Positions 8,278 through 60,787 of a stretch of 64,000 nt of DNA are shown piece after piece. The stretch is from Sycon ciliatum. Its lineage: Eukaryota > Porifera > Calcarea > Leucosolenida > Sycettidae. The number at the start of each line of letters is the position of its first letter. The first letter of the stretch is position 1. The stretch lies in NCBI RefSeq assembly GCF_964019385.1, contig NC_088645.1, positions 17,538,180-17,602,179 of the forward strand. The letters are read 5' to 3'. The notes beneath the pieces were generated by a model, which was not told the DNA's origin, made no database searches, and worked only from the letters and a program-made list of their open reading frames with translations. The translations under genes and the position numbers were made by a program.

Positions 8278-9284
8278 CTAGGGTAACAGACAGTCGGAGG
8301 GAGAAAGATAGTCTGATGGAGTCCCTGGTGCCTTTTCTCTCGCCTTAGAAAACCTGCTTCCGCTCTGCTCCGAACCTGTCACGCGATAGGACTCATCGGA
8401 CAGTGGAGGTGGTATGCCAAGGAGAGCATTATTGACAGGAGGTCTATCCGCTCCAGGTAAGTAGTTAGGTTTGGAATCTTTTCTAGTCGCCATTGGTCTT
8501 CGATCTGCAGCTGGGGTGTTAGCCACTTGCATCTGATCAGATATGGATCCCGAGCTGCATGGTGTGGTCCTGATCTTGTGCATGGAAGTGCGAGCCGTGG
8601 CTAAAGCGTAGCCATAACCATCTGTACTCTCCACTATGCCGATTGATACAGCGCCCGCACATCTACCCGTGTGATCATCACATTTCCTGTCTGGAGCAGT
8701 GGCAATGGCATAGGCATACTCTACATTCTGCTCCATTTGGTCAGGAACACTAGCGTATTCGTTTGGCAATCCTTCGAGTATGTAGTCATTTTCAATTCGA
8801 TTCGGGGCCTGTGAGGGCATCTCTGTAGGGGGAACAGATCCAGTGCTTGAGCTCATGGCAAGGTCATACTCATGGTAATCACTTCGGTCAATCTCAATGG
8901 CAGCTCTAGCTTGTTGGTCTCCTCTCCCTGTGGATGTGCGGTGCGTGTGATTGCGCTGCGGGGACGGCATCTCCACCTCTGCACGGTCTGCCTGAAACGT
9001 ATCAACAGGTCCATCCCCAGCTGTCGTGGCCCGTCGAGCGGTTAAGCTGCGTCTAAGTAGTTTCAATATTTTCTCTCTCTTCCGGAGGAGCAGCGCCACC
9101 AACAAACCTATCAGGGTTACACAAATAGTTGACAGAGCCACAAGAACCGCCTTGCCGTTCTGCACTTTTCCTGATGACGAAATCGTCATTTGCGTCATTA
9201 CGTGAGATGTTGCAGATGTTGCTGTGGCTATGGTGGTGTTCAACGGATATTTTGTGCTCAATTGGATTGGAAGTTGTGACGCCG
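8278..9284 (-). CDS. gene A exon 3: transmembrane helix and tyrosine-rich tail
   Basis: Acceptor TTTTCCAG/CG at 9285 in phase 1; stop TAG at 8278-8280. A Ser/Thr-rich stalk precedes an apolar helix of about 22 residues and then a basic stop-transfer (LLLRKREKILKLLRRS). The tail carries YHEYDLAM, DYILEGL, NEYASV, EYAYAIAT, YGYALAT and SDYLSPSD. The YA(I/L)AT word also occurs twice in gene B. This looks like a docking tail for SH2 proteins; no kinase or phosphatase domain is present. Confidence 0.8.
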
Positions 9285-11723
9285 CTGGAAAACATGGAGA
9301 AATTCAGATACAAAAGCAGTGATGAACGCGAGGTGCACGTCAATCATAGCTCTAGGCTACTGAGATTATCATTCAAATTTTCGACTCCCAAAACATATCG
9401 TCCAACTAGCGACGCTCAAAGCTAGCAAAGAGTATTTGAGGGGTACAGCTCCCGTTAGGAGCTGCATCTCCCGCTAAGGTATACCTGGTGTTAGCGTCCG
9501 TCGTGGGTTCCTTCGGGAACGGACACGATCAATTACTTATTTACTTTGCAGCTCGCTAAAGGCAAATTTAACAACAAAGCAAAAAGACAACACCGTCGAG
9601 ATCAATATTGTCAGACGCCTCACACAGCTAGTTCTTCCCAACAAACCTCTTTATAGTGTCTTTCTCTCTCATCAGCGGAGCTCAGAGTTACGGACCGAAA
9701 GGATCCGCTTTGCGAACAACAAGGGTGAATAGAAATCGGACCAGAGTACCAATTTCAGAGGTTCCTAACGGCGAGGAAAACTGAGAGCTATTCACGAAAT
9801 CGGAATGATGTTATGAAGGGAACACCAACCTGGCTTAACTAGAAACTTGCTACTTAGAAGTGTGGAATGCCCTAGAAAATAAAGACCTGACTATATCAAG
9901 TCTCAAATCTCTCAATGGAGAATCCCCGCAGTCCCTATGTACTTTAGAAAATATTATAATTATCAATTCATGTTGGGGCCAAAGTGCAGTTGGCTTTTAA
10001 AGTACCAGTGGTATACTTTCGTTTTCAGAGGCCAATGGCGGAGGGTTGGTATGGAACCTTGGACACGCACAGTCACCTATTATGTTCATGATCTATAGCA
10101 AAGGGAGGCAATAGGACCTAAAGAAAAGGATTCTCTTTCCCCAATTATAGGTACATACATGTAGATAAAATCTCGTGATACGCTGTCAAGACGAAGAAAT
10201 TAACGCGTTCAGAGAAATCTTCGGAGACCTGGTAACTGTATGTTCAACTTTGGCCACCAGTTACCTTTCTACAGTGGGTGAATTTCTGGAGAATACGATA
10301 GGGAGGAGACATGCAACTAAACGGCAGACATTTACCAGATCACCAGGTCACCACATTGATGATCGCTTTTGGTGGAGTTTCAACTCGGAGTACCTAAACA
10401 TGTTCTCTGTCCCTTTTGTATCAGCACCCACACCTAGAGTGCTTAACACTCATCGTTGTGTGGACTACTTCGCTTGTGTTTTTCTTACCTTTGCATAACG
10501 TGCCATTTTGCGCGGGAGTAGCCGAAAATCCACTGGAGCAGTTACAATAGTAGGAACCAGGAGTATTCACACATTTTCCAGTTCCTTGATGCTGACTACA
10601 AAGATGAGGTACTAGGGCACATTCGTCGTTATCAATGCATCCAAAATTCTTCCTCTCCTGTACGCGTACTTCAAGTGCATACATAAATCCATTTTGACAA
10701 ACGCATTGATAAGATCCCAAGCTGTTTTCGCACTCTGCTACGTATTTACTGTTATCGTTCCAATGGCAGGGATTTCTATATAGTTCACACTCATTGATAT
10801 CGTTGCATGTAAACTCATGTTCATGTCCTACAACCAGTACAGGTTCATATCCTTCTTCACAGTCACATTTGTATGACCCCCACGTGTTGATGCATGTGGG
10901 TTTATTGCCATTTTTAGGATGATCACCGCAAGGATCCTTTGTGTGAAGACATTCATTGATATCTAACACAGCACACGGGAATAGATACACATGGACATGC
11001 ATTATCACATCATCCGTACATCATTTGAATTTTTGTGTTGGTGCACGACCCTATCTGATTCTCTTCACATCGTAGACATCACACTTGAAAAAACCCGTGT
11101 CAAGTAAATGCCTTACCTTCTTGAAAGAATAATCCAATGTACGGGTTTTTGTCTGCAGTCAAACGGGTGCTACATGTTTGAGACATTCCAGTCTCATTAT
11201 GGACGGTGAATATGATGCGAAGCTTAGCGGATGATGCCAATGCTAGTTGTATATAGCCTGGCATACGTGGGCCCACTGAAATGAAATGAGATTGCACATT
11301 CATAATGGACCATCCATTCTGCCCATTGTCGTGGAATTCTTCTGAGACTACGATTAACTGACATGCACCCTCTGTAGTATATTCTATTCCTGTGACATTG
11401 ATAAGACAGTTGCCTGGGAATTCGAAGGCTGCAGTAACTCCATCGGGCGGTAACTGTTGCCACATTGGTTGGCTGTTGAGAGCAACAATAGGAGACCAGG
11501 TTGTCCATTTGAAAACTTCAAGACCTCCAAAATGGCTTTCAATCACAGTTACGAGGTTTTCATTTCCTGGCACACATTTAGGCTGCACTTCGCCTGAAGC
11601 CAACGTTATTACCGACCACATTGTGACTATTAGGACAATCAAAATAACCTTCTGTCTTGCTAGACGAGTACCTGGGATATGAGACAGCAATAACGACAGT
11701 ACCAAAAAAAGCCATTGCTTCAT
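8278..11723 (-). CDS. gene A: EGF-domain transmembrane receptor, 3 exons, ~695 aa
   Basis: Exons 11723-11117, 10962-10489 and 9284-8278 join in phase 1 and give 2088 bases with one stop. Order: hydrophobic leader with two apolar stretches, a cysteine-bearing ectodomain of unknown family (FEFPGNC shared with genes B-D), three calcium-binding EGF modules, a transmembrane helix (AVLVALSTICVTLIGLLVAL) followed by basic residues, and a tail of about 260 aa rich in tyrosines (NEYASV, YAYAIATA, YGYALATA). It is the shortest and simplest gene of the tandem family and the only one with a plausible ATG in the first exon. A CCTTTCCAG acceptor lies just upstream of that ATG, so a 5' non-coding exon is possible. 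A second acceptor (CCCAG/GT at 11672) matches where genes B-D begin this exon, so the true start could lie in an unseen exon. Role: cell-surface receptor, ligand unknown. Confidence 0.75.
9425..9550 (+). repeat. 3'-end hairpin of a retroelement (GGGTTCC-TTC-GGGAAC family)
   Basis: Around 9500-9530 lies CGTCGTGGGTTCCTTCGGGA then ACGGACACGATC, followed by the T-rich tail TTACTTATTTACTTT. The same hairpin plus tail ends a short insertion with target duplication at 41912-41986, and a variant ends a LINE fragment at 58533-58773. This is therefore probably the 3' end of a related retrocopy lying in intron 2 of gene A. Its 5' end is not defined. Confidence 0.5.
10489..10962 (-). CDS. gene A exon 2: three calcium-binding EGF modules
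   Basis: A 474-bp phase 1-1 exon encoding three EGF modules with D-I/N-N/D-E-C starts (DINECLHT, DINECELY, DNDECALV) and the aromatic calcium-binding pattern (C.N..GSY.C.C). Acceptor is GTTAG/AT at 10963, donor AAAG/GTAAG at 10488. In genes B-D each EGF module has its own exon; here three share one exon, which implies intron loss or a separate history. Confidence 0.85.
11117..11723 (-). CDS. gene A exon 1: leader and novel ectodomain
   Basis: Starts at ATG 11723 (MKQWLFLVLSLLLSH) and ends at donor GAAG/GTAAGG, phase 1. The domain part starts at about residue 44 and holds four cysteines (KCVPG, PGNC, GACQL, QTCST). Genes B-D carry a fifth cysteine (LVCEG) where this gene reads GLFFQEG, so one disulfide is probably missing. 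I do not recognise the fold; length and spacing suggest a compact secreted domain. The exon borders match those of the paralogs, which supports homology. Confidence 0.75.
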
Positions 11724-15935: not shown

Positions 15936-16771
15936 TTAGGTCTGGCGTGTTGCCCGTGTTGGTGCGACGGCAGCATATTGCGTGTCTTGAACATGCAACT
16001 CGTCATAACGGAGATTCTGCGTCTGAGGAGTCGTCGAGTCATGAGATAGTTTGGTGTATTCATAGATGGGCACATCAGGAGCAGCAGCGGCGAGTTCAGG
16101 TAAATTGGAGAGATCTGTTCTCCAATTGGAGATCAAATTGGCATACGGGGTCGGTTTCTCTGGGGTTGCGCGAGTGGTTGAGGTGATCTGAGTTCCATGT
16201 GAGATCTCTGACACGCGTGGCTCCGATGTTCCACCTCTGGATTCACTTGACTCAGTTGCCAAGGCGTAAAAACCCAAGTCGTCTTCCCCACAGTCTTGGT
16301 TGCTTGGAGGTGCTGCGTTCCTGGAGGATATCGTGGCCTTGTTGATGGCTCTTCCCTGACTAGATTCAATAGGGTTAGAATACTCAGGTGCGTTTACCGA
16401 TCCATCAGTTGCAAGGGCATAGATCGAGTCGCGCTGCTCGGCGGCGTTGTCAAGACGTGTGTGAGATGTGGCACCAGCGCTTGCAACGCTATATTCATTC
16501 TCCTCTGGTCCATTTGCGCCCACAGTCTGGTAGTAAACTACGGCAGGCGCATTCTGGTGTAGCTCCGGCTTTTGATCGGAGGCGCTGACAGTGTCCACAG
16601 GCAGATCATTCTGTGTTTGGTTTCCTCTAGCAGCTGCAGCTTTCTGTCGTTTCCTGATGACGATGTAGGTGACCAGAGTGGCCAGAATCAAGACAACCAG
16701 ACCTGTAGATATAGAAACCGCAACTGTGGCCGTTGTACGGACATCAGTAGAGCTAGTAACACCAACCAGAG
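15936..16771 (-). CDS. gene B last exon: transmembrane helix and ITIM/ITSM-like tail
   Basis: Acceptor GTTACAG/CT at 16772 in phase 1. A Thr-rich stalk leads into the helix VSISTGLVVLILATLVTYIV and basic IRKRQK. The tail of about 220 aa has NEYSVA, SIYALATD, GFYALATE, TPYANL, YEYTKL, LRYDELHV and TQYAAV. LRYDEL fits the ITIM consensus and TQYAAV fits the ITSM consensus (TxYxxV/I); TPYANL is close. The open frame runs further upstream, but that part lies in a SINE and a GT repeat and is not coding. Confidence 0.8.
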
Positions 16772-19700
16772 CTGTAACAAAACACATATTCACACGCATA
16801 CCCCATACATGAACCCATACAAAATACACAGTCATAAAGACCGAAAAATGCATACATAACGCACACACCCACACACAAACGCACACTCGCAACACACACA
16901 CACACACACTTTGACCTTTGACGCCCGTCGCCGGAGGCGATGATAGCAATGCTACGGCAGAAGCCATAGCAACTTGTGCTGGGATTGCACCATTCAACAG
17001 CTTGCAAGGCTGAAGAATTGACCGTCACTATTCAGCCTGGTCTACACCATACAGCTATTTGAAGTGACTTTTTCTGGCCAGTGAATCCCTATTTTGGTCT
17101 TTTTTGGTCTTTTTTTTCTTTCTTTTTCCCGCACAAATATCACACCACATACTCCGGCATGCACTGGCTGTTGGTAACCACCCAGGAGAATGAAAGAAAA
17201 GTCAGGAAGATTCTAAGAAAGAGAAGAAAGACGTGTGTGACCATAATCGTCGGGAATCGAACCCGCAACCTATCGATTGGAAATCGCTGCACATACCACT
17301 GCGCCATATGGGACACACACACACACACACCCAAACGCGCACTCGCAACATTGTCTGAGCGATATCCCGTGTCGGCATATTCTGAATAGTTATCAAGTGC
17401 GAAAATCATCCTACCCTGTTTTTTACTTCTAGTACAGACTAACATGAGTGGCTAGAGAATGGAATTATGCATGATGCCATATGTCACCTGCTCACAGCTG
17501 TATAGCCTGGTGTGTAAGGAGAGTGGTCTCAATGCCTGTGGGGACAAAGTTCGAAGTCTAAATTATAAACGTAAATTAAAAAAAGCGACTGCTTTGCAGT
17601 TGTTGCCGCGGTCAGGCCAGTGAAGTCATGTTCTGTGAATGCCCGTATAAGGGGCTTAAAAACATTAACAGCGACAGATCAACCAGGTTTACAATAATGC
17701 TCACCAAGACCCCTCTTCTAGGCCCTTCCCTCAAAGACAGAAACGAAAAGGTGTTTTAAACAAACTATCCCAAACTGAAGCAAGGAGGCGATTTCCGAGC
17801 AGACACCTTTTTAAAGTAGATGGAATCTTTCGTCACCTATTATTACGTCGCCAGATTTAAAATGTGAAATCAGGAGTACGTGGACCATTGATAATCCCCA
17901 TATCTGGCATCTTCGAAGAATACGGTGGAAAATTAAAAGTAATAGCTGTCTTTCAGAGAGGAAAACATAACCGAACCTCATATCTCTACATAGCTATGTC
18001 ACTGTTGGGAATGGTGCAAATTGAAGTCATGCCAGCATCGTATACGTACGGCGTACTTAGGTGTCCATCTCATCCTTTGCCGCTGGTCATGCCGCCGATG
18101 AAATAGAAGTTGCAACCTTTGTTTTGCTATCTCGGAAACATCCTCATATACAATCAGTGGTCAGTGAACAGAGCACCTCCAGGGTGTCAGTCCCCACATA
18201 ACTTACCTAAGACCCAATCAGCTCTACTGGAAATCAAACAAACGTAAATGAAGCAATTGGGCCTCCTAACACACACATATTGCATGCCGCAATATGTCCT
18301 ACTACAAAGACATAGTCATTTTCAGTTGGCACAGCTTATGTATATCCACTGGTGTCTAACCTGAACAGTTGACGTCGTAATTCCCTGCCAAACATGGACA
18401 ATGGTAGGACCCGATCGTGTTTGAACAAGCTCGATTCTCATTGTTGATCTCGCCGCTACATACGTCAGCTTCATCTGTACATTCATTGATGTCTGTAAAG
18501 GATTAAAGACATGGTCCTGCTTTCTGAAGTACTTGCTGCACACGGTTTCTTTGAGGAGTGTATAATGCCGTTTTGCCGTTTCTTCTTTCACTAATAATTA
18601 TATCTCAGGTGTGTACCTGAAAGAAGTAGAATAAAAGTAATTATTGTTGATTTCACCGCGCCTACCACTCGGCTACCCATTACATTTACACTGGATTGAG
18701 GCTCCAGTCTCTCCGGAGGCGTGGGTTCGAATCCCACAGCTGCCACCAATGTAATGGGTAGCCGAGTGGTAGGCGCGGTGAAATCAACAATAATTACTTT
18801 TATTCTACTTCTTTCAGGTACACACCTGAGATATAATTATTAGTGAAAGAAGAAGCGGCAAAATAACTGACTTTCTCTCCGGTGCACACCTGGAGGTTGA
18901 ATAGCTCGTTATTATCAAAATCTCATCTTCTTCAAAACAGAAATGCGCAGCCGCTTATATGCAGCAGACGCTGTACGCTTACATACGGAGATACACTAAA
19001 TACACATCAGGCAAAGCTCCGTATTAGTTCCGTACTGCTTCCGTATTGGTCGGGCAGGGATACTACACTAACAACAATGTGAATGTGTTGCTAGGTTTGA
19101 TACATAAAATTTCTTCCTTGGCATGTGTCTTTGGTCCGTGATCCTAAAAGAAAGGTAATTCATGTCGTTATTACATAACACTAATCTGTAAAACTACTAA
19201 ACTTCTATCTCAAAATTATTGCTGAAGGTCGTATCGCATCAAAGGCACAAAACTGTATTTACAAAAGTGTTAGGTACCTCCTACCGTACCTTTTCTAGCT
19301 GGCCTGCATGCACTCGTGTACTCACCTTTTATCTCCTTTTGTTCCGCTGGCCTGGGTATCTACTTGCGCGCCCATAATTGCCATAGCTACCCAGGCCCTT
19401 TATCTTGCCGTTCAGACTTGATCTCTTCCTCTCTTTTCTCACTCTTCAATGTAGTCGTTTCGTTCGTCTTGGTCTCTTGTCTCGTCGTCTATAATAAATG
19501 TCGTTCCACCAACCTACCTGTTCCCGTTGTAATGTCTGGATAATAATATGTCGTCAGTCGTCCTTTTCGTATTCAACAAAAGCATCAATTATCAGAAAAG
19601 GTAATTGTGTACCTTCGCATGACAATCCAGAGTAGCCATCTGTGCATACACATTGGTAAGATCCAATTGTGTTTTGACAGTAACTGCGAGCATTCCCATT

Positions 19701-22700
19701 ACAGATATCCTTGTCTTGTTCGCACTCATCCACATCTGAGCATTGAAATAACAGATATAAAACAAGAATGTCAAAAATACGGAGACACTAAAATTGTCCT
19801 CTTGTCCTACCATCCGAAATCACAGTAGGTCGAGCACTCGAATGCAACGTGTAACTTGTACACTTTATGCATACTTCATTCCATTCATTCCTTGACAAGA
19901 TTATACTACAAGCATAATTATCCCGAAGTAGCATATAGCTCCTCCTTTCGCTTGCCATGAGGCAGGCTCTCCACCTTAGCTCATCGCTTGAGTACTGTTA
20001 AATTAAAAAAGGCTGCAGCTAGGAGGGGTGCTCTTTGTTGAAAAAAATATTTGATTATGCTAAAACCTATAGAGAACTACAATGTACAGTGTGTTGTTCC
20101 TCTTGTACCTTGACACGGAGGTCCAGTAAAGCCTCTTTTGCACGTGCATTCAAATGATCCTTTAGTGTTTGCACAATAGCTATTCTTAACATCAGTGCAG
20201 ACGTCCTTGTCTGTCTTGCATTCGTCAATATCTGTAGAAAACGAGGACATAAGCTTTATCATTTAAGTGCTCTTTTGAATACGTTAGACAGCTTGAAAAC
20301 ATTTTGATCGACAGTTCTCACATCTTTTCACGTCGATTACCCAATGGACTCATTTTGAAAATGCGTATGAGGAGGCTTGGAGTACACTTGAAATTTGAGG
20401 AAATATCGTACCATAAAATACCGTCCAGACAATCTTAGAACCCTTTCCTCCATCTAGGTCAATCTGCTGCTGTCTTACCTGAACAGTTTCCATCATACTT
20501 TCCTTCCACACATGGGCATTGGTAGGACCCGTTTGTATTATGGCAGATGCGGTTCTCACTATTCCGTAGTCCACTGCACACTTGATCTTCATACATACAT
20601 TCGTTGATATCTAACAAACGCAGAAATCAGATGGTTCGGGGCGTCAGTTCTGTGCATCTCAGAGCAATGTTAGTCCGATAGGCTGCTCACACTCCCACAA
20701 TTTCTGTGATGTGGTGTCAACAATAGATTATTGATTTATTATTATTTATTTCATTTTTTGCGTTGTCGGACTGTATCATTGCACAACGTTCATCACTACA
20801 CATATTTTCGAAACATCTATCCATGTGCATCACGGTGAGGTTTGTCCTCAAGCACATGTTGCATAGCTACTTCCATACCTTGGCATGACCATCCGGTAAA
20901 GCCAGATTTGCAAACACATTGAAATGAACCAATGGAGTTGATACAATGACTGTTGACAGCGTGCATGCAAATCTCTTCGACGTCCTCACATTCATTGATA
21001 TCTAATCATGAGAATGTGAAGTATAAAAAGGGAAATGACTGTAAGCAATGCTGATGGATCATAGGGCTAAAACATTAGGTTTCCTTCTCCTTTTCTGTGG
21101 CAGGTTTATGATCGAGGTGTTTCTGATTGGTTACAACAAATTATAGTTCGTGTGGGTGAGATTTTGTCATCGGGTAAATCCAGTGTGACCGTTTTGAAAA
21201 ATACAACAAATTGTTGACGGTGTATAATCTGAGGACTGTTCCCTCAGTGTGACCGGCCTAAGGCATTCATTTTGAAAATGCAAAATTGAACCCTTTTATC
21301 CTTCCTATATTGTCCACCTTTTGCTGTCTTACCTGAACAATGTTCATTATACTTGCCTTCCACACATGGGCATTGGTAGGACCCGTTTGTATTTCGGCAG
21401 ATACGGTTCTCACTATTCTGTAATCTACTGCAAAACTGATCTCCATGCACACATTCGTCAATGTCCAGCAAACACGGAAAACACAATGTTCGGGCGTCCG
21501 TTCTGTGCATTTCAGAGACATCACCGACAATAACTGATTCCAGCCTTATTTCCTTACCTTTCGTATCTCCAAGTTGTACTACATGGACACAGGACACAAG
21601 ATACTATTGTCCCCTGGTTGACCACATACTATTATCACAACTCCCAACCAAGAACCACATATTATTATTATGATGTTTTGAATGTGATGGTATGGGCGTT
21701 GGGGCGAAGAGCGAGTCAGTGTGGACCTTGTCGGTAAATAGTACGTCTATACTATTGTTGACTTTCTCCATATATCGGTATTAGTGTACAGTATCGCTGG
21801 TCTCAATGTAACAAACGCATGCTTGCTTCAGCCAAACTCGGCCGCCACTCGGCCGCCACGCAAGCAGCACGAGTCCACGTTGCAGTAGGTACTGGTAAAG
21901 TCTGAACACCTCCATATCGCAGCGTATCCCAAGCCTCCGTGTTAGAAAGCAGGATATGCGAAAGAGTAAATTTTGTCTTCTAGCTCGTTCAGAACTTACG
22001 CCAATTGCTCACAGTAAACACATGGAATATCTAAGAGTAAGATGCAGTGCATAATGGTGGTCCATCCCACAATATCCTGTGATGTTTTGTAAAATTATAC
22101 TTCAAGTACCAACATAGTATTCAATGTTTGCGTTGCGCGGACTGTATCGCTGCACAACGTCCATCGCTACCCATATCGGAGCAACATAATAATATAGTGA
22201 AAAAAGGAGAAGGACAAAATGTTACGAGTTATGACCAACTGCCCACCAACGTAACCAGATCTTATACAGTCAGTCAGTTCTTCTCCTTTTTTCACCATAT
22301 TTTAATTGGCTCACTATCCGAATTCCACATAATAATATGATTATATTCATGTGAATCACGTTGAATCACATTTGGTCTTAAGCACATGTTGCATAGCTAC
22401 TTCCATACCTTGGCATGGCCGTCCGGTAAAACCAGATTTGCAAACACATCGAAATGAACCGATGGAATTGTGACAATAACTGTTGACTTCTCTTTTGCAG
22501 ATCTCTTCGTCATTCCCGCATTCATTGATATCTAATTGCGAGAAAATGCAATTATATTAAAGTCGGGAAATGTAAGAAAAAACTTAGAAGTAGCGACAAC
22601 CTCGGCCATTTGAAATTAATTTGAACTGTCCACTTCTCAACACTGCGCTCTTGGCCCACATTCACAGAACCGTACTTCATAGCGAGGATGGTGGTTCTTG

Positions 22701-29913: not shown

Positions 29914-30401
29914 TCAATTCTTTGGGAAAGCAATCACCTCCTCGTATTCACAATCAATTGGATTTGTTGTGGTGCTTCGCCCGTGCTTGGTCGGTGGTGG
30001 TGCAGTTTCTTCATACACAGGATTGACTGTCATGTAAACTTGGCTGGGACAGCTGGAAGACGCCATGTTGGTAACGTTCGAAAATCCCGTTGTAGCCGTG
30101 TTATTGACCACCAGTTGAGTAGTACAATCGGATAACACGTACAGTTCACTTGGCGTCAGCGTAGCAGCATCCTCTTGACCTTGGCGTGCTTCCCGTCGTG
30201 TTGTACCCCTACATACTGCTCCGGTTGTACATTGAGCTCGGGTTCTTTTCTTCCTCTTCACACAGTACACTAGAGTAATGACACTCAGAAGTACTGCAAG
30301 GACGGAAGTTGCTGCCACCAGAATATAGACCGTTGTGTGAGACATGGTAATCGTGCTCTCGTCCCCTGTTGTGATTGATCTAACAGTTGTAGTGCCTATA
30401 C
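29914..30401 (-). CDS. gene C last exon: transmembrane helix and short tail
   Basis: Acceptor CCTGTAG/GT at 30402 in phase 1. The stalk TTTVRSITTGDESTITM leads into the helix TVYILVAATSVLAVLLSVIT and the basic KRKKRTR. The tail has tyrosine motifs ELYVLS, QVYMTV, PVYEET and CEYEEV, ending at AFPKN. The gene D exon is nearly the same except for changes at two motifs. Confidence 0.8.
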
Positions 30402-42556: not shown

Positions 42557-43065
42557 TTAATTCTTTGGGAAAGCAATCACCTCCTCGTACATGTGTTTAC
42601 ATTCAATTGTATTTGTTGCGGTGCTTCGCCCATGCTTGGTCGGTGGTGGTGCAGTTTCTTCATACACAGGAAAGTCATACACAGGATTGACTGTCATGTC
42701 AACTTGGCTGGGACAGCTGGAAGACGCTATGTTGCCAACGTTCGAAAATTCCGTTGTAGCCGTGTTATTGACCACCAGTTGAGTAGTACAATCGGATAAC
42801 ACGTACAGTTCACTTGGCGTCAGCGTTGCAGCAACCTCTTGACCTTGGCGTGCTTCCCATGCTGTTGTACCTCTACTTACTGCTCTGGTTGTACATTGAG
42901 TTTGGTTTCTTTTCTTCGTCTTCAAACAATACACTAGAGTTATGACACCAAGAAGTACTGCAAGGACGGAAGTTGCTGCCACCAGAATATAGACCGTTGT
43001 CTGAGACATGGTAATCGTGCTCGCGTCTCCTGTTGTGATTGATCTAACAGTTGTAGTGGCTATAC
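42557..43065 (-). CDS. gene D last exon: transmembrane helix and short tail
   Basis: Acceptor CCTGTAG/GT at 43066 in phase 1. Helix TVYILVAATSVLAVLLGVIT, then LKTKKRNQTQ, fewer basic residues than in C. The tail has ELYVLS, QVDMTV (Tyr in C), PVYDFPVYEET (a 15-bp duplication compared with C) and HMYEEVIAF. Confidence 0.8.
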
Positions 43066-50655: not shown

Positions 50656-50693
<38 letters not shown>

Positions 50694-53600
50694 TCTCCTG
50701 GGAAGTTCTTCATGCTCATTCTCCCTTTCTCTGTCCATTTCCCCTTCCTGATGCGTAGACCAACTGTTGAACCCGAGACCACTAGGTCGGGGGAGGTTGA
50801 CCTACCTCATCGGCACGCATGCCACGCTCCTCTGTGTTGTCAAAGTTCGCTTGTCCACTTTTGTCTACCTCCCCTTTTATGTTGCTGGCCAGTGCTTTGT
50901 AGTAAAAAAAAAAAAAAAAAAAAGTCTAGGCGAAAATTTGTATTTATACCGTATGTGAAGAGCGCGCACTTGCGCCCATGATCATCCTCTACACTCTACA
51001 ATATTTATTATCGTCATCATCAGCTGAGAGCGCATTGTGGTGACGAGTTTCAATAAATTGGAGCTTGGCCGAAAGCTCTGTCACAATATTTAACTGTGAT
51101 CTTTATGACCACTGTCTTAACATGTATCAGCCAGCATTTCTGCCAGCTAGCTGGCCTCTGCGTACACCGCAGACACACCCACGCACAACAGAAAGATACG
51201 GATCACAGCAGTAGTGTGGTCTTTGTTCACTCACGGTTGAAGATGGAAAAGGGTCTGACTTTACCGTAGTGTATACAGGAGCAAGAAGAAGGGCATGCCA
51301 CCTCACACAAATACATGTACACGTATGTACCAGACCAACATGATACAAAAACTGAACCACTGTGGTGAGTGGGGCCGTCGGATAATTAGCCAACCTGAAG
51401 CTGGCTGAAAAAACCTCAGGCCCCCGGCGGAGGCACAACCCTTAGGAAAAATCGGTTAGCATAACCCCATAAGATAAGTGAACAAAACGTAGCGAGCAGG
51501 ACCTATCCAGAAGTGAGAATAAAGGGGAGGGCGGGTGGGAAACTACAACGAAAAGAGAAAGACCACGATGAAGAGAAAAGTTTGAGAACACTGACAAAAA
51601 CCAGCTGACGCAATCCTGGTGCCGTAACTATGGTGAAAATGCTGGGAAAAAAATACATTTTTCGTTTCATTCGCTACGCTCAGCCACCACAAAATAACAC
51701 TTTACTTCTATTTTGGATACACATACTTCCAAGAACGTGACGTGTACTTAGTACATGCACAGTACACGTAACAAAGGTCGGAAGGGAAACGTCGTTTCCC
51801 TTACGACCTCTGCATGGTTGGAATGTTTGGCGGGAGATTAGCAAGTGATTTGTTGAAATGAGTAACAATGCTGAAAAACTATTCTGGACGGCTATGCGTC
51901 CTTCGCAAACATCATAGAACGATCTGTGGCAGTTTCTGAAAGCAAATTTCTAAGTCATAGTAGAAGGTAGTACCGTTCTCGATATGACTACCAAGACTAA
52001 GCTTTCCCCAAATCGGCCCGTTTTTTCGCCTACTCGGCTTTTCGCTCCGCTCAAAAACACATCAGATTCGGCTGCAAAATCAGCTGATTGTTCGAAAATC
52101 GGCTGCAAAATTGGAATATATTGGAAAATCGGCTAAAAGAATTGTTGGCATATTGCCTTCAATGGGTGAGATATTGGTAGATTTGGGTAGATTTTCAGGG
52201 GATTCGCGAATTAACCCTTCAAAATCGGTAAAAAGCTTCTCGTTTCCGGGGAATGTTTCGGCTGGTCGATTTGGGGATTTTACTAGTAGCGATCTTCCTA
52301 AAGGATAATGTTTATTTGAGAGGTCAAAGGGCACGAGACACACGACCTCAATGTTCTAGTACCACAAGTACTGATGTAGAGAGCTCTAGTGGTCATGCTT
52401 GCAGCAGCATCATTCGTTCGTAAACGCACTTTGCAACAACATTTGGTAGATTTTCGGCGATTCTCAAAGGAACCGTCCAAAATCAGCGAAAAACTTAGCG
52501 AGTTTTCGATAAGTCCCGTTTTGGGCCAATTTTTCGGCCGGCCTATTTGGGGAAGCCTATCCAAGACTCTGGCAACTACATTGGACATGTATGTCATTCG
52601 TGTACTTCAAAGTACTATAGCTATGGGACCACCAGATTGAGGTTTTGAAATACAATCCACACACCACAAACAAAGCCGGTCGAGGCAGCTCGAAGCAGTG
52701 AATGCCAAATGCTGCAGTCTGACGGTCGCTGAAATGCGTGAAACTTGAAGTTACAGCTATAAAGCTTTTCACCTCCATTGTATATGTACACATCAAATGT
52801 ATGCCACTGTTCAATCAGGTTGCACAGCCTTTCGTTTGCAATTACGAGCCTGTTTCCATGCATGATAATTTCCAGTTGGCATATGACAGAGGCACATTAT
52901 GCAACTACTTCTCACGTACATAATGCCGTTGTTTCTTCTTTTTTTTCTTTTCCTTTTGGCTTATCATGTTTTATCGGCAACCCAGAAGATGTTTATGAAA
53001 ACATACTCATGTCCAGTCTGTACAGATAGCACCTCCAGCGGGTCAGTGACCGCATATTTTACATTGGGCCCAATTAGCTTTTCTGCAAACCAAATGAATG
53101 CAAATGCAGTAATTTGACCACACACAAAGCACTTTACATCTGCGCCTTTGATCCTAGAGGGAGGTGGCGTTCCCACGCCGGATGCGGAAAACTCGGCTTC
53201 CAGCCGAGTCTCACGCGAACCGTGAAATTTTCTCATTCTTGCTACAAAAACATAACCATCCTCTCATTGGATAGGCGAAGAGAACTCACTGGTGACGTAC
53301 CTGAACAGTTGACGTCGTAATTACCTGCCAAACATGGACAATTGTAGGACCCATTGGTGTTTGCACAAGCACGATTCTCACTATTGATCTCACCGCTACA
53401 CACGTCAGCTTCATCTGTACATTCATTGATATCTGTAGGGGATATATTACACGGTCCTACATCAGTACTTGCTATACATGTAAATGTACATCGTTTCTTT
53501 TAGGAATGAATCATGGTACCTAAACTGTGAATGTCTTGCCAGGTTTGATGAATATAAATTCTCTCTTGCTATGTGTCACTGGTGTGTGAACCTGCAAGAT

Positions 53601-56600
53601 TGACTAATTTTGTGTCGTCATCACAGATTTATCTATGAACCTATTGTACTTCTATCTCAAAATCTCTTTTGGGTGTGGAATCGCATCAAATGCACAGCTT
53701 TGTATTTTAAACACCCACTCTCAGACAAGGCAATTGTGTACCTTCGCATGACAATCAAGAGTAGCCATCGGTGCAAAACATTGATAAGATCCAATTGTGT
53801 TTTGACAATAGCTGCGAGCGGTGCCGTTACTGAAATTACCCTCCTGTCCAATCATCAGAACTCACAGTGGGCCGAGCACTGTCATGCAAAGTGCCACTTG
53901 TACGTGCACACCGTCTGCATGCTCTACTCCATGACAATACCCCATGCATGTACTATTAGCATTATAATCTCGAGATAGCGCACACCTCCTCCTTTTGCTT
54001 GCCGTGAGGCATGCTCGCCATCTTAGTAGTTTTTATTATTTTACTAGGGGAGTCCCAACAGGCTACTGCGTTTTTACTGGGAACCCTAGGTGAAGTTTAA
54101 CCATATTAATGAACAGAGCAAGAGAGTGGGCCTGTCGACAGTCAGCTGTAATAGAGTTCCATCTGCCTGCCGCCAGAAAAGAAATAGAGCGCATGCCGTG
54201 CTGCATATAAACGAGTGGGAGAACTAAAGCTCTTTGTGCCTTGCCCCGGGTGCATGCCTGGTGACCAGGTGCAGTTGCCCGAAGCTGGTACAAAGACTGA
54301 AGAAAAGGACTAGCAAGATGCTGGGCTAAGCAGCGGTACACAAAAACATAGAGCTTGAGGCTAATACGCTGTTCCAAAGAATAGAGGTGATATAAGCGAA
54401 GAACTAGTTCAGTGGGTGTGGTACGATCGAGTCCAAACACTCTCCTCATTGCTGTGACTAACGGTCACAAACCTATTGTACAAAGTTGTGCTTAAACAAT
54501 GTAAATTTGAACTCGGATGATGAGCCAATATAATGTAGTTATGATGAAGAAAGGAAAAGGACAAAATGTTACGAGTCCTTGTCAGTTTTGTGCCATTTTG
54601 TTTGTCATAACTCGTAACATTTTGTCCTTTTCCCTTCTTCATTAAACAATTTAGTTAAGCATTACTGGCATAGTCTAGGGTAGACTGGATAATAGACAAG
54701 TAGAATGTTCCCTTTGCATCAGTTGTTAAATTTCTACGGCCATGTCGGAAAGCAGCAACTTTAGCAAAAACTGAGTTACACGATTTCTGGACCTGTGGAT
54801 GGAAGGTGAGATGGTCGTCTATCAATAAACCAAGGTATTTGGCAGTGCTCGTAGGGGTAATAGCCTTTCCTTTACAGGTTAAGGGCCGTGGCAACTGCGT
54901 TGCTGGAAGGCGGGACCGCTGCAGGATTAGAAATTGCGTCTTGTCGGGGTTCATGATGAGCCCCTTCAGATCTAAATGGACCTCCAGGGCAGTTAGATCG
55001 TACTGGAGATCCTGTAACATAGCAGGAAGGTCCAGTCCGATGATGAAGAAGGCAATGTCATCAGCATAGAGTTGTGACACGCTGTGCTTGAGAATTTCCG
55101 GCACCTTTCGAATATAAATGCAAAAGAGCAGGGGACCGAGGATCGACCCTTGCGGGTACAAAGACACAGTCCCACCATGCTCGCCATGCTCGCCATTGAC
55201 TATGACTTGTTGACTGCGGCATGACAGATAATCTGCAAACCACTGCAATACAGTGCCCCGTAACCCAACATTAGCTAGCTCATGGACTAGCTGCTGATGT
55301 TGAACGCGGTCAAATTTCTTACTCATGTCTGCAAACACTATTGCGCATCGTTGACCATCGTCCAATGCTCGGTTCCATCTATCAATGGAGAGAGCAAGGG
55401 CATCCTCACAGCTGTGGTTGGAGCGATATGCAAATTGTTCCGGTGGAAGGGCAGAAAGCTCATTGTGATCACTAAAGAACTCCACAACCTGTCGATGAAC
55501 AATTTTCTCCAATACATTGGAGGCAAGTGGGAACAGAGATATGGGACGTTAGTTTGTAGCTGACAGTTTGTCTCCGGATTTGAATAGAGGACACACATGT
55601 GCGTGCGTGTACGCTGTAGGAAACACACCCGAGAGGAGGGACTGGTTGATGATGGACGCTAGCGGGGCTGCAATAGACGCCTTACATGACTTAAACATGC
55701 ATGGAGGAATGCCATCCGAACCAGCAGACTTGTAGGAGTTAAGATTGGTCAGTATGTCCATAACTGTCTCCGCATTTATTAAGGCGAAATCAGTCAGGGT
55801 GCTCGTTGTGGCAGCATCTTTCGAAGCAGGTATCTGCAGTGGTTGTGGCCGGTTTGGATCATGAACAACTGCTGCAAACGTATCTGTGAGTTCTGGAAGT
55901 GGTGCGGCGGTAGTAGACTTTACAATGGCTCGGCCAGATAAGTTGTTTAGTCGGGACCACTATCCACGGGGATCACGCTTCATATTTCTTAGCTTATATT
56001 ATCAGTACGGTCCTATTTTAAATGAGCTTGTAGCTAGGTGGGGTGCACGTTTTTCATAAACAATAATGATTGATTATGCTGAAACATGTACTTCGAAGTA
56101 GAGAACCACAATACATAATGTGTTGCTACTCTTGTACCTTGACACTGAGGTCCGGCAAAGCCTCTTCTGCACCGGCATTCAAATGATCCTTCAGTGTTTG
56201 TACAATTGCTATTCTCAACATCAATGCAGACGTCCTTGTTCGTCTTGCATTCGTCAATGTCTGTAGAAAATAAAGAAAAGCAATGTCATTTAAAATTGCT
56301 CTGTGAAATACGCTAGACAGCTGGATAATATGAATCGACAGTTGTCACATCTTTTCTAAATCAATCTACATGTACTAAGGACCTGGTCACACGGAGGAAA
56401 ATGTGGAAAAAATCCGTGGTTTCCATGGATATTAATTTTGTCGCTAAACGGGAAATTTGAGCACTATCACACTAACTGATGGCCTAACTCTTTCTTCTTT
56501 TGAAAAAGGTGTCAGCACCAACTCAATCCACACGGTCAAGTAAAGCCAAATTAGGACTGGAACGTTTCGTCCCTTTTCATCATGGGTGTTAGTACTGGGA

Positions 56601-59600
56601 ATATTGGAAAAATGTCAAAATACAGCAACTTATAGAGCTACAGCAAAAGCATACGTCCTCGCCCTATAAGTTGCTATATTTTGACATTTTTTCATTATTC
56701 TCTGTACTTAACCAGAAGGAGAAGGGAACGAAAACGTTCGTTTGCTAAACTGGCTTTACTTGACTGCGTGGATTGCGTCGGTGCTGACACTTTTTTCGAA
56801 ATTGGATACGCCGCAAATATTTTAATTCTTCTTTCTTTCTTGTTCCCCCCCCCCCTGGTGCCCGTAGTGTGCAAGTATACCGAGACCTTTGGTCGGGGGG
56901 GGGGGGTCCACAATGCCCACCTACACAGCTGCGCTAGTGGATACTAGTAGTCAGCCCTGACACAATAGTTGTTTTTTCTGCCAACCCTTACGTTCTGTGT
57001 TCTAGTCGTTTCTTCGTTCTCCCTGCGACTTTGTTATCATTCTTGTCATTATTTTTTGTCTCGAGCCGGGTTTGTGTTCTTTGTAAACAATAAATAAAGA
57101 GTCCACTCAATGAGAATCAACTCGAGGATGTGCTTTTCCGCAGAAGACTATTATCATCCGCAGCTTCCACGGTAGTTGTTTGGGTTTCCTTGTTTTGCTA
57201 TTGCTTTCATGAAGTGGAGCGACACTCTAAAGCCTGCGCTGATGCAGCTCTGGCCAAGGACTGGGGCTGACAGACTGGCAGAAACGATCGGTTACGAAAC
57301 AATTATTATAGCTCGTGTGGTAGAGATTGTTTTCATCGTACAAGTCCAGTAAGACCCTTTTGAAAAATACAACAAAATTATTCACGGTGTATAATCTGAG
57401 GACTGTTCCCTCAGTGTGACCGGCCTGAGGCATTCATTTTGAAATGCGAACTTGGAGGCTTGTAGTACACTTTAAATAGGAGGAAATAGAGTACCATAAA
57501 ATGCCATCCGGATATCTTGGAACGTCTTTCTTCAATATTGTCCATCTGTTGCTGTCTTACCTGAACAATGTTGATCATACTTTCCTTCCACACATGGACA
57601 TTGGTAGGATCCGTTTGTATTTCGGCAGATACGGTTCTCACTATTCAGTAATCCACTGCACACGTGATCCCCATACATACATTCATCAATGTCTAACAAA
57701 CACGGAAAACACAAGGTTCGGGCGTCAGTTCTGTGCATTTCAGAGAAAATACCTATAATACCTGATTCCAGGTTTATTTCCTTACTTTTGGCATTTCCAA
57801 TTTGTACTACATAGACACGGGACGCAAGACACTGTTGTCCCCTGGGGTTGACCACTTACTATCATCACAGCTTCCAACCAAGAACCACATTATTATTATT
57901 ATTGTTATCATGATGTTTTGAATGTGATGGTATGGGCGTTGGGGCGAAGAGCGAGTCAGTGTGGACCGACATGGAAAGAAGGAAGAGCACCAAAAGAAGT
58001 TTCGTTCCTTTACATTTGAATGATTTTCCGGCATTGAGAACATGAATCCCTTAGCCTTGGTGCCTGACTGAGCACGTGCTGAGCGCGATGTGCACGATAC
58101 CATCGGTCCAATCTAGATTTTGCAATCGAAACCCCACTGCCTTCTCTGTAGACATCGATAAGTCAGCTGGTCTCTGTAAATAAAATTAGGCAAGCATCAG
58201 AGTCTCAGAGATGCATGCGACCAGCTCTGTAACCAAGTACAGGATGTACTGGCTGCAGAAATCCACCACGGGAACCATCAAATTATTACTAACCCTGGCA
58301 TGTTCCGCCAGCCTGTGAAGACGAGGAGTAGCATACGCAGGAGTAGGAACCATAGTTGTTGAAACATTGGCCAGAATCAACTCCACTGTAAGGATTGCAT
58401 GGATGTGGAGTTTCTGTACATTCATTTACATCTACACAAGTACCGATATTATAGGTATACGCAAGCATCAAGAGGATAGTGAACACTTATTCGCAACTCA
58501 GAGTTTCAGACATTCTTGAGACGATCACCGCTCACACCTATCTGCATTTTTAAGCCCAGCGGCCTTCGTGATCTCGGCACCTATGCCCGCGACAGAAAAC
58601 AATGGAGTAACATCTGCTCAGCCATTTAGTCTAGTACTGCTCTTCTTAAATTTGACCTTTATTACAAGACTCTTTTTTTCTTTTTCTTTTCGTTCTCCCA
58701 CTCTCACACACACATGCTCACAGTTAATTCTGCGTCGTAAGTCCCATTCGGGACGGATACGAGAAAAATAATAATCACCGCTGCTTTTCCCTGTCAGAGT
58801 AAATAACACACTTTTTTGTTCTGCAGCGTCGGGAGTTGTGTTGGAGTAGAAATGTCTGACTAGACGTCGCGACGTGCCTGCTTTCCTGATCAGGTATGAG
58901 GTTGGACGTATTTCAGCATGGTGGAGTGGAAAAATTCGAAAATGTTAATTTCAAGGAAACCCAATGCTGTAGACAGCAAAAATTTTTGGCCATGCATGCC
59001 TCACCAGTACATCTACGAGCTTTAAGTAAGCTAAGCTACCAGTCGGTGGCTAGTTGAGTACGTAGCCCTTTTATCATCGCTTGTAAATTGGCTTTTTCAA
59101 AACGATTATTTGTCAGGGGCGATGGCTCTCGTCCTCTGGGATGCTTGCGTGGCTAAGCGGTACTTCGTCAGGACCTCCTCCAAGGTGAGGTAATGTTGGC
59201 TTGATGGAAGTTTGTTCTTAGCTTGTTCGTGTACGCTGTGCCTGTTTGTGGACCCATATCTTATGTGATGTTCCGACCATATCTGAGGGGTATGCCAGTT
59301 TCATGCTTGAGAAACGTTGTCAAGGGCTTGACACAGTCGGTCTGCACGTATTCTGAATTACCTGCAATATTTGGGCGAAATCGGAGAGATCAACTTGAGC
59401 ACATTGTCTGGTTATCTCAGACATAGTCTCTTAAAATGTCACAAACAGAAGGATCATTTTTCCTTTTTTATTATTCTGCTGTTGAAAAGTTACAAAATTC
59501 CGCTATTGCATGCGTATTAGCACCTCATTGACCAAGCTCGTTCCTCATTATTCATTCCATTTGGCCTAAGCGAAGACTGGCCAAGCTTGCTTGGCGTGAC

Positions 59601-60787
59601 AACGCGAATAGGTTGATAATACTATAAATAATAATAATAAACAGAAGGACGAACAGTTGCGATGTCGTAACTCTGAGTTTAAAGAATGTAATCGATCATT
59701 CGATGTCCTAAGAAGAAGATCCGAGTCAGTTCCTGTGACTCAGAGTTACGAAATCGCAAATGTTCGTCCTTCTGCTTGTGTATTACGCTCTTTGCCTTCT
59801 GTAAATCGCGGCCTCTAAGAACGGTGCATGAACCCCACACAGTTGACATTTCATCATGTTCCGTTCATGAAGTTAACCAATAGCTTAATCATTTCCACTG
59901 AAGGGTGGGACGCGAAAATGAAGACTCTGGAATACGATCATCTTCAAACGTACATTGTAGATTACAATAATAATAACACAGATACGCGTACAACATGCCC
60001 AGCCGTGCTACACATGCTTCCGCTGCTGTTATCTAGCTCTGTCCATTATGAATGTCAATATCCGGCAGTTGTGGCGACTCCTTCAGATTATCTGCCGCCA
60101 TCCATTGCGATCCGCAGCAAACTGTCTTAGGTCGTCCAGATGGATTCGGCTCGAGAAGCCCGGATTGCCTCTGCTGAAATTATACTTGTATACCTAGATC
60201 TGGACTCATACTGTTCATTTCTCTACATAATTCAAAACGGGAAAATGGGACAATGATTTGTAAAAATAACTTACCCTCGCAAAACAGAGATATGAATGGC
60301 TCAGTACCGACCAGAGGTGTATGACATCCATTTCGGTTCCGTATTGTAACTTTGATACGGGTACGTCTCCAAATGGGTTGTACTATCCTTAGTTCATCGT
60401 AATATTTCGCTCCATTATTATAACGATGCGGCACATGAGAAAATCGTACAGATGTCCAATGTGACCACATCCCTCCATTGTGCTGTTGACGCATTACACT
60501 GAAGTCACACAGACCTAGTGACGCGAACGAAATCTTACGAGCTACCAAGTTGCAATTTCCAGGATACTCGAAAACTACTGTGTATGGTGTACCGGGCGAC
60601 AGCTGCGTTCGCGGTGTGGTTCTAGTAGCAGTAGCAGTAGTGTAAGAGACGTAACTCTGAATGATATTGTCATCGTTTGTAACCTGTTGAGTGTATCGAT
60701 TGACGGCTCCACATGATGTTTCTTGGGCACAAGTTGAGTATATCCATGAGGCCAGTAAGCAGAATAGTACACCGGTTCTCAATAGAT
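42557..60787 (-). CDS. gene D: EGF-domain transmembrane receptor enlarged by LINE insertions
   Basis: Exons 60787-60275 (leader and ectodomain), 58431-58294, 57692-57561, 56260-56138, 53432-53301 (EGF) and 43065-42557 (transmembrane and tail) join in phase 1 to about 514 aa without the initiator exon. The EGF exon that gene C has third is destroyed here (remnant 53743-53832). The last intron exceeds 10 kb because of a LINE nested in another LINE, and the intron between 56138 and 53432 holds a third LINE. Coding exons other than the dead one look intact, so the gene may still work. The tail is like that of C but with one tyrosine motif changed to Asp and a new YDFP word. Confidence 0.68.
43816..44245 (+). 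pseudogene. LINE ORF1, 5' part (coiled coil)
   Basis: ATG at 43816, then a heptad-like stretch (LPSIESDVSAVLKSLAALV, RFDELSRQVSELKEEVASL) that should form a coiled coil, followed by a Ser/Thr/Pro-rich linker. The frame is cut by the insertion after EFEND; removing 2911 bases (insert plus one TGATG) continues it exactly into 47157. Confidence 0.7.
44246..47151 (-). mobile_element. CR1/Jockey-like LINE inserted into ORF1 of the plus-strand LINE
   Basis: TGATG flanks the element at 44241-44245 and 47152-47156. The 3' end (plus strand 44246-44263) is GTTGTTGTTG.., that is a (CAA)n tail on the minus strand. The 5' end is truncated within the endonuclease domain. The remaining frame, 47151 to 44424, is open for about 909 codons, so this is a young copy. 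Confidence 0.85.
44424..47151 (-). CDS. LINE ORF2: endonuclease (truncated) and reverse transcriptase
   Basis: Order from the truncated start: FDIFGVAETWLD (endonuclease motif), GCFYRPPDEP near residue 85, GDFNVN near 117, a DLIL/SDHLG pair near 155-180, then reverse transcriptase with ATGSDGIPG near 419, FAFRAGHST near 510, LLDMSKAFDKV near 544, CGVPQGSVLGP near 602 and the catalytic FADD near 632. The C-terminus has the usual YGSNEFSPLL and LWNTLPSDIRA words. No stop interrupts the frame. The open frame extends upstream to 47291, but that part belongs to the host LINE read backwards. Confidence 0.85.
47157..47758 (+). pseudogene. LINE ORF1, 3' part
   Basis: Continues ORF1 after the nested LINE. 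A basic patch (RRRKRNKSTK) is followed by VVYVGNLSRETTEDRLREFV, which looks like an RNA-recognition-type beta-alpha unit, and a C-terminal tandem repeat (NKSSSADTAS twice) from a 33-bp duplication. ORF1 ends in CAACAATGA, whose ATGA starts ORF2. Confidence 0.65.
47755..50118 (+). CDS. LINE ORF2: endonuclease and reverse transcriptase
   Basis: ATG overlaps the ORF1 stop (ATGA). Endonuclease: LLTNAGGI at residues 4-11, TETKI near 37, YRPGSAS near 105, GDFNVH near 143, RSDHCVVH near 208. Reverse transcriptase: STGPDEIPGR near 454, FGFRRGLGT near 548, AVDIAGAFDKVSH near 582, AGVPQGSLLGP near 638 and the catalytic YADDTT near 670. An indel near 50075-50100 replaces the expected C-terminus with a short tail and stop; the proper continuation (RLTVYKGFVRPIMEY) is in the next frame. 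Confidence 0.8.
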   Translation: MKILLTNAGGIMSKFGEFQHALVSSKADIAVVTETKITAEKFSLHELAIPGYSGPLRRDRTEHGGGIAIWIRSPLAYHHLDQYDSSVHEVTWLTVQSAHHGKIVLGAVYRPGSASDTDISTLEHLDGILDSVRKHGTHTMLVGDFNVHNTAWLGSSKTTRAGEYMEELSAAHSLMQHVQEPTRGLNTLDLVLSDFTGTVTTGISPPIGRSDHCVVHAVLAQAPLENEPSTRRRVWRYGQADWNRLRAHYRRIAWAAEFPEDPEEACSLVTRHIVSGMLQFIPHKMLETRPSDPSWWTPECTEAQRAKEKAWKAWRHQGPSECLKQSSMTTVTQSITTQHRAQQAEEQTVRERLTRGSMRDKDWWRNVKRAAGLGRTTDVPTLTDADGHEHSTSKAKSECLARFFAEKCSLGDNDIDNAELPATPRTTTPGLQRIRFRVSEVQQCLKRLNTSKSTGPDEIPGRVLKECAAELAHPLARLFRLCFANGVQPQSWKIARVVPVHKKGPKSMMKNYRPISLLTIISKIMEGIINRQLVNHLETHQLFSSSQFGFRRGLGTSDLLTALQHSWATTLAGGGLVHALAVDIAGAFDKVSHPGVLAKAQQCGIHGQLLAWLRSYLHDRKLTVVVGGQSSPLFPIKAGVPQGSLLGPTLFLLYVNDAEQCLAPGSSLAVYADDTTLYAIIRNPDTIAAACNSLQASIDRLQTWGAQWKIKFEPSKSQAILLDRHRPSLDVPQLTFDGMQVPESPQLKLLGVLFDSTLSFRAHIRSLAVRANQRSERHLRSWTVQGA
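50121..50624 (+). pseudogene. LINE ORF2 C-terminal part after a frameshift
   Basis: MEYAPLVWASAAHCHL, RRAMKVIG and VLESWNTLPAPILAERPTLK are standard LINE C-terminal words, in the frame next to the main ORF2. The stop TGA is at 50622-50624. Confidence 0.7.
50658..50690. repeat. (CT)n microsatellite in LINE 3' UTR
   Basis: Uninterrupted CT run of about 16 units followed by TTCCTCTCC. Confidence 0.85.
50924..52703. other. extra DNA in gene D, no gene; inverted-repeat element inside
   Basis: Absent from unit C. At about 52002-52020 AAGCTTTCCCCAAATCGGCC pairs with GGCCTATTTGGGGAAGCC near 52539-52556, and words such as AAAATCGG and GGTAGATTTTC recur, so a MITE-like element of about 560 bp is likely. 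Part of 51020-51050 is an inverted copy of a sequence near 43410 (CGTCACCAC.. GCGCTCTCAGC). Confidence 0.4.
53130..53240 (-). repeat. interspersed repeat, copy of 13858-13965
   Basis: GCGCCTTTGATCC..., GGAACGCCACC (as reverse) and GAGTCTCACGCGAACCGTGA match the repeat at 13858 in reverse complement. Unit C lacks it at the same place. Confidence 0.5.
53301..53432 (-). CDS. gene D membrane-proximal EGF module
   Basis: 132 bp, phase 1-1, DINECTDEADVC start, acceptor CTACAG/AT, donor TCAG/GTACGT. Confidence 0.85.
53743..53832 (-). pseudogene. gene D wrecked EGF exon
   Basis: The 3' part of the EGF exon (compare 32866-32988 in C) remains with its donor (GAAG/GTACAC). The first third with the acceptor and the DxDEC calcium site is deleted: the sequence jumps from GCCGTTAC to TGAAATTACCCTCC. 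A base is also missing in GTGCAAAACATTG against GTGCAAACACATTG in C, which breaks the frame. Confidence 0.8.
54515..54660. repeat. MITE-like hairpin inside the LINE
   Basis: GAAAGGAAAAGGACAAAATG with TTACGAGT pairs with ACTCGTAACATTTTGTCCTT and TTCCCTTCTTCAT. Same family as 22190, 30845 and 35020. It sits between the two halves of the LINE C-terminus, so it arrived later than the LINE. Confidence 0.6.
54655..55761 (-). pseudogene. reverse transcriptase of the 54-56 kb LINE
   Basis: One frame through 55761-54655 apart from a single nonsense codon at 55549-55551. It holds all core RT motifs, including both catalytic Asp sites (ADMSKKFD and YADD). The QG motif reads YPQGS in place of VPQGS. It ends at LDYASNA where the MITE breaks the C-terminus; the rest continues at 54449. 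Confidence 0.75.
56138..56260 (-). CDS. gene D EGF module 3
   Basis: 123 bp, phase 1-1, DIDECKTNKDVC start, acceptor TCTACAG/AC, donor CAAG/GTACAA. Confidence 0.85.
56845..56906. repeat. C run and G run (homopolymers)
   Basis: A run of 11 C near 56845-56855 and a run of 12 G near 56895-56906. At the same G site unit C has only five G (near 34875). These are in a gene D intron. Confidence 0.8.
57561..57692 (-). CDS. gene D EGF module 2
   Basis: 132 bp, phase 1-1, DIDECMYGDHVC start, acceptor TTGTTAG/AC, donor TCAG/GTAAG. Gene C lacks this exon; gene B has one intact and one damaged relative. Confidence 0.85.
58294..58431 (-). CDS. gene D EGF module 1
   Basis: 138 bp, phase 1-1, DVNECTETPHPC start, acceptor TGTAG/AT, donor CAGG/GTTAG. 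Confidence 0.85.
58533..58773 (+). mobile_element. 241-bp LINE 3' fragment with 9-bp target duplication
   Basis: ATCACCGCT flanks it (58524-58532 and 58774-58782); units B and C have one copy of the site. It starts in a LINE C-terminus (SGLRDLGTYARDRKQWSNIC then a stop) and ends in a hairpin GTCCC-ATTC-GGGAC, GGATACGAG and an (AATA)n tail. The coding end resembles RTE-type LINEs. Confidence 0.75.
60275..60787 (-). CDS. gene D leader and novel ectodomain exon
   Basis: 513 bp, phase 1-1, acceptor GATTACAG/AT, donor GAGG/GTAAGT. Leader GVLFCLLASWIYSTCAQ, then the five-cysteine domain with VFEYPGNCNLVARKISF and LFCEGK. It is 12 codons shorter than in C, mainly because the Ala-Thr run is short. 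Confidence 0.75.

Follow-up and report, generated by a model that had tools for sequence, protein, structure and literature searches.

A large cluster of putative membrane receptors with EGF modules and an uncatalogued four-cysteine head

Tandem receptor genes with variable outer domains are a common layout for loci that tell self from non-self, and the stretch analysed here raises the question of whether its genes belong to such a locus. The window, i.e., the whole 64,000-nucleotide stretch, covers positions 17538180-17602179 of contig C3 in an assembly of 313 contigs and 538.4 Mb. A first-pass annotation made from the letters alone described four receptor genes here and read them as a self/non-self or immune-type cluster. 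We rebuilt the genes, searched the genome for their relatives, compared their outer domains and tails, and weighed that reading against its rivals.

Gene models and the extent of the family

The four genes, which we call A, B, C and D, do share one orientation: stop-to-stop frames, a cysteine scan and inspection of splice sites place them all on the minus strand, as are all gene features given below. Their modelled proteins are 669, 759, 527 and 525 aa long, respectively, and each consists of a leader, a domain of ~150 aa (the head), EGF modules (3, 7, 4 and 4 in A, B, C and D), a transmembrane (TM) helix and a tail. The exon joins are models from genomic sequence rather than from transcripts. 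The head exon borders first given for B (26344-25826) and D (60787-60275) hold, the EGF exons are in phase 1, internal exon lengths are divisible by three, and each model closes as one frame. The proposed layout (leader, head, EGF modules, one helix, tail) likewise stands, but the end of the cluster at 60787 does not, because B, C and D start one exon earlier (27464, 39019 and 61813), which takes D past that point. This first exon is 31 bases long, conserved among the three genes and outside the exon list of the first-pass annotation.

Gene A begins with a signal-peptide exon (MKQWLFLVLSLLLSHIPG, 11672..11723) that ends in a phase 1 donor. Its four-cysteine head exon (11117..11593) is 24% identical to that of B at the protein level and is followed by a single exon with all three EGF modules (10489..10962), where the Pfam profile EGF_CA (PF07645) scores 92.6 bits against a cut-off of 27. 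The last exon (8278..9284) encodes a stalk, the TM helix and a long tail with 11 tyrosines, closed by a stop. Nine window exons were scanned with Pfam, and only EGF-type profiles exceeded their cut-offs, EGF_CA being the best. In B, C and D, by comparison, the EGF exons were identified by their cysteine pattern and D[IVFL][ND]EC starts, not by a profile scan.

Gene B opens with the start of a signal peptide (MDINKKPYRK, 27434..27464), followed by the head exon with the invariant cysteines and tryptophan (25826..26344) and seven usable EGF exons, the first at 24096..24233, the last at 18361..18492 and the others at 22409..22531, 20879..21001, 20479..20610, 20109..20231 and 19613..19735. One extra EGF exon (21333..21464) has a GG acceptor instead of AG and is probably skipped; D contains a similar exon with an AG acceptor. 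The final exon (15936..16771) encodes the TM helix and a long tail with YALAT repeats, LRYDEL, VYYQTV and YxN sites. Gene C has its first exon at 38989..39019, its four-cysteine head at 37391..37939, EGF exons at 35668..35805, 33359..33481, 32866..32988 and 32156..32287, and a TM helix with a short tail (ELYVL, NPVYEE, EYEEV) at 29914..30401. The corresponding parts of D are a first exon at 61783..61813, a four-cysteine head at 60275..60787, EGF exons at 58294..58431, 57561..57692, 56138..56260 and 53301..53432, and a TM helix with a short tail at 42557..43065. We rejected a receptor tyrosine kinase as the identity of these genes, since Pfam found no kinase domain in the four tail exons and the tails close with stop codons.

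Other elements are interspersed with the genes. The introns of D hold LINE-type reverse transcriptase (RVT_1) frames at 44427-47351 (-), 47683-50115 (+) and 54658-55548 (-), the first two of which also carry endonuclease domains, and a further LINE-type RVT_1 frame at 3025-4332 (+) matches below its cut-off. Upstream of C and D are minisatellite-like direct repeats with a 34-base spacing (39260-39500 and 62054-62431). Imperfect palindromes lie in an intron of C (35208-35604) and an intron of B (18571-18863), with 83% and 89% self-complementary matches, respectively. Scans for Rfam families and tRNAs had no hits.

B, C and D align in DNA across exons and introns, the listed blocks being 75-96% identical and most of them 83-95%; A has no such match to any of the three. 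B and C are 96.4% identical in the first EGF exon and 91.9% in the head exon, but their DNA homology stops ahead of the tail exon, and the tail exons themselves have no DNA match. D lacks the first part, including the acceptor, of the EGF exon found in C at 32988-32866.

The window holds only four of at least 29 head copies in this genome. We searched the whole genome with the head of B (20 matches listed), with a divergent head (six, two of them new) and with the head of A (15, seven of them new), scoring 52, 27 and 28 candidates, so the 29 copies are a lower bound. All lie on contig C3 between 17,197,191 and 18,106,585, i.e., within 0.91 Mb, and none of the matches listed at E<=0.001 falls elsewhere. 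The minus strand carries 25 copies and the plus strand four. No stop occurs inside any of the 29 head matches, and one copy runs into N past the domain. In a tree of 22 heads, the clades correspond to physical blocks. A pattern scan of the 1.5-kb flanks of 22 distinct loci found EGF exons downstream of five (L018, L022, L023, L025 and L026); its misses are uninformative, because it also missed the known EGF exon of A and because those of B, C and D lie beyond 1.5 kb. We rejected an open frame of 1050 codons at 17234195 as an artefact, as it continues into a stretch of N. Dense EGF_CA groups also occur at C2:24.65-24.91 Mb and C14:22.759-22.764 Mb (150 of 3744 candidates scored), the latter inside a 2444-codon open frame.

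The head domain and its divergence

The head had been described as a five-cysteine domain. Four of the cysteines are a conserved core: together with one tryptophan and the final glycine, they are invariant in all 22 aligned heads (out of the 29 copies). The fifth (LVCEG) is restricted to the clade of B, C and D. In the head at 17234195, which is outside this alignment, the tryptophan seems by eye to be absent.

That the head matches no known family was also part of the first-pass annotation, and sequence searches with Pfam (window exons and 20 members), NCBIfam and PDB sequences agree. No Pfam family matched more than two of 20 heads, ten families being matched by any member at E<=1, and the MAM profile matched none of the 20 at that threshold. 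The cysteine spacing is presumably also unlike that of the MAM domain (meprin, RPTP mu). Pfam gave neither an Ig nor a sushi match in the heads of A, B, C and D; among the 20 heads, one matched PF25788 (Ig_Rha78A_N) at E 0.00067, with the cut-off not displayed. NCBIfam, run on two heads and three tails, returned no family for the head, and a head profile had no match in viral contigs. The best PDB hit of four- and 20-member profiles, a 29-residue stretch of Smoothened at E 0.042, was taken as chance. These results support a head that fits no catalogued family at the sequence level.

Two structure models, built from the four window sequences alone, reached pLDDT values of 57.5 and 50.7. Their best structural matches differ: galactose-binding-like and TNF-like folds for one model, and MAM, VP2, Elapor1 and GOLD for the other. 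Because the best matches of these two weak models disagree, we limit the claim to a beta-sandwich, a common fold, which the models suggest for the head.

The receptors were said to diverge quickly, and the heads do show an excess of protein change. By counting, head dN/dS is 0.86 for B-C, 1.22 for B-D and 1.58 for C-D. EGF exons mostly give 0.04-0.6, except that comparisons of B6 with C or D give 1.05-1.41; for the C-D tail the value is 1.17. We also fitted site models with purpose-written code to five heads of clade I and seven of clade II, leaving L018 out of the latter as too divergent. Under M0, omega is 1.83 in clade I and 1.46 in clade II, and in clade I a value above 1 is favoured over omega 1 (2dlnL 6.57). 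M2a improves on M1a by 40.4 in clade I and 17.0 in clade II. Naive empirical Bayes points to head positions that include domain residues 76, 87, 92, 96, 99-101, 106 and 117. When the clade I null was simulated 200 times, the largest value was 6.62 versus the observed 40.4, each simulation being fitted from one start with 40 iterations, i.e., fewer than in the real-data fit. The clade I signal is kept in both halves of the head (10.2 and 28.9) and under three other trees (52-66).

We chose the EGF exons of B, C and D as a control for this test. Their omega is 0.79, yet M2a improves on M1a by 12.3, so the site test may be inflated by segment exchange or clustered mutations. A clean contrast between constrained EGF modules and a selected head is therefore weakened.

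Segments of the head exon do appear to have been exchanged. C and D are 98.0% identical over 595 positions at the end of intron 1 (its last 600 bases; 95.7% in a five-way alignment) versus 89.5% over 513 positions in the head exon (Fisher p 1.2e-9). Pairs with B reverse this order, the head exon (91.9% for B-C) being more alike than intron 1 (78.6%). Two further clade I copies, E (L013) and F (L012), are 96.3% identical upstream of the exon, 91.6% within it and 93.5% downstream of it. Informative sites localise the difference: across the whole head exon, 31 group B with C, 18 C with D and 17 B with D, and in one segment of C (37400..37579, minus strand), which groups with B and not D, the counts are BC 22, CD 0 and BD 3. 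Intron 1 has CD 167, BC 14 and BD 9 (Fisher p 2.4e-20 against the exon tract). A comparison of all five copies gives CD 23 and EF 29 in the upstream intron, versus BC 7, DF 6, EF 6, BD 3 and CD 0 in exon segments 4-6. Intron 1 and the exon tract differ in their site groupings, so the segments of the head do not all share one history. Judged from these sequence patterns, the cause is probably gene conversion, added to rapid protein change.

Both the EGF control and the exchange of exon segments between copies would also suit a plainer account, in which an ordinary family of adhesion or growth-factor-type receptors was expanded in tandem, with relaxed constraint in redundant copies and gene conversion producing the fast change. 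We consider this unlikely. Relaxation alone does not produce an omega above 1, and a decaying domain is hard to square with four cysteines and a tryptophan kept in 22 of 22 aligned heads and no stop in 29 matches. The tails bear on this account as well.

The tails and the best explanation

The tails had been called tyrosine-rich. By density this wording is loose: tyrosine makes up 3.3-4.6% of residues, and an excess of Yxx-hydrophobic sites exists only in B, with five sites versus a shuffle mean of 1.5 (0.75% of 2000 shuffles reached this number). The tails of A, C and D do not exceed their shuffles in such sites, and for these genes we no longer use tyrosine density to argue for signalling. 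What does stand is that three tyrosine islands recur in 12 short tails.

The short tail of C and D occurs at 14 places, all on contig C3 and none with stops. Thirteen are on the minus strand, each in a different interval between heads; the single plus-strand copy follows a plus-strand head at a distance of ~4 kb. We compared 12 of the 14, i.e., all except those at 17806088 and 17246382. Eleven of the 12 carry [ED]LYxL, and the remaining one has His for Tyr; NPVY is present in all 12 (by eye, as the alignment splits that of C), and so is Y[EML]E[VI], within divergent surrounding sequence. These are not 12 independent cases, because the tails fall into three sequence groups.

The long tail of B has relatives at three other places, listed only on contig C3, and two of the three contain stops. 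At L036 and L037 an intact short-tail exon lies ahead of long-tail remains, and at L038 a partial one does. A tail was found in the interval of 17 of the 29 heads and not in the other 12, a count that covers the short (C/D) and long (B) types. What may be a decayed short-tail fragment lies past the stop of A (6992..7069, minus strand; tblastn E 0.002, 46% identity over 26 aa), and its sequence suggests that A formerly had or neighboured a short tail. Candidates for the ITIM pattern [IVLS]xYxx[LIV] are VYYQTV and LRYDEL in the B tail, with none in the tails of A, C and D. By the gene models, B and C carry very similar heads on different tails, the arrangement that characterises paired receptors.

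For the adhesion or growth-factor account, the decayed tails and the dead EGF acceptor in B would signify ongoing decay, but the tyrosine islands have been retained. Fast ectodomain change and tandem copies would equally suit gamete-recognition proteins (egg-coat or sperm receptors) evolving under sexual conflict, an explanation we find improbable, as the retained intracellular islands and the change of tail type point to cell signalling. A tissue cell-identity code of like heads adhering to each other, as in neuronal clustered protocadherins, would fit a tandem array of similar heads that exchange segments but is very improbable, given tails that differ from gene to gene and an omega above 1, unexpected for a fixed internal code.

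The reading we prefer, and regard as probable, is that the cluster is germline-encoded and that its products are type I membrane receptors which recognise variable cell-surface partners. The idea of a recognition-type cluster gains from the 0.91-Mb array, the excess change in the heads, the histories of their segments and the pairing of similar heads with unrelated tails; it loses from the control that passes the site test. The cluster is real, large and for the most part intact, its head is uncatalogued, and its signs of recognition-type evolution are strong but not watertight. More specifically, the locus may be a complex for self/non-self or immune recognition in an animal. In this narrower version, which we advance tentatively, the four-cysteine head would be a new one that belongs to none of the named immune folds, selection and segment exchange would have diversified the heads, and the heads would be coupled to two or more kinds of signalling tail.

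If these are recognition receptors, the four-cysteine beta-sandwich head would bind a ligand that varies, and the EGF chain would be a calcium-stiffened stalk that sets its reach. Ligand binding would cluster the receptors, allowing Src-type kinases to phosphorylate the tail. YEEI-like sites are of a kind suited to Src-family SH2 domains, NPxY to PTB domains or endocytosis, and YxN to Grb2. In the short tail, the Y[EML]E[VI] island may dock SH2 proteins and the NPVY island PTB or endocytic adaptors. The long tail of B has ITIM-like and YxN sites, so similar heads may signal differently, in the manner of paired receptors. New heads would keep arising by duplication and segment exchange. The exact exons given here can be used for population and binding tests.

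Comparison with known recognition systems

The Alr genes of Hydractinia are clustered and diverse, with immunoglobulin-like heads, and the heads of Siglec, CEACAM and KIR receptors are also of the Ig type. The heads of A-D differ from those of Alr in having no Ig match in Pfam. Our literature search, which most subscription papers were beyond, found no description of the present gene family.

The nearest system in layout is that of the Botryllus fester co-receptors (FcoR) and the fuhc locus. As described in PMC12065747, the FcoRs are clustered germline type I receptors linked to recognition, whose tails carry tyrosine motifs and whose heads contain one V-type Ig, one sushi and two C2-type Ig domains. 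Clustering, type I topology and tail tyrosine motifs are shared with the present genes, but the A-D heads match neither Ig nor sushi in Pfam, so the likeness to the FcoR described there is one of layout and not of shown family membership. No counterpart was found of the sushi domain that FcoR has between Ig domains: the nine window exons scanned with Pfam gave no sushi match, and the rest are EGF-type by pattern. The same paper mentions Hydractinia Alr as candidate recognition genes with ITAM/ITIM-type motifs.

Paired receptors offer a second comparison. Siglec-11/16, CEACAM and KIR receptors (PMC5701461, PMC2832619, PMC12310515) have very similar ectodomains on different tails, and gene conversion among Siglec heads is also described. 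The Siglec-11/16 layout (PMC5701461) resembles the present cluster in setting similar heads on unrelated tails. Opposite signalling is described there for the mammalian pairs, whereas in the present cluster it would be a prediction from the layout. FcoR, fuhc-tm and Alr, the allorecognition receptors considered here, all have immunoglobulin-type heads. A clustered, diversifying family on another scaffold, with the layout of paired receptors and a retained tail of three tyrosines, would have arrived at the same solution via different parts.
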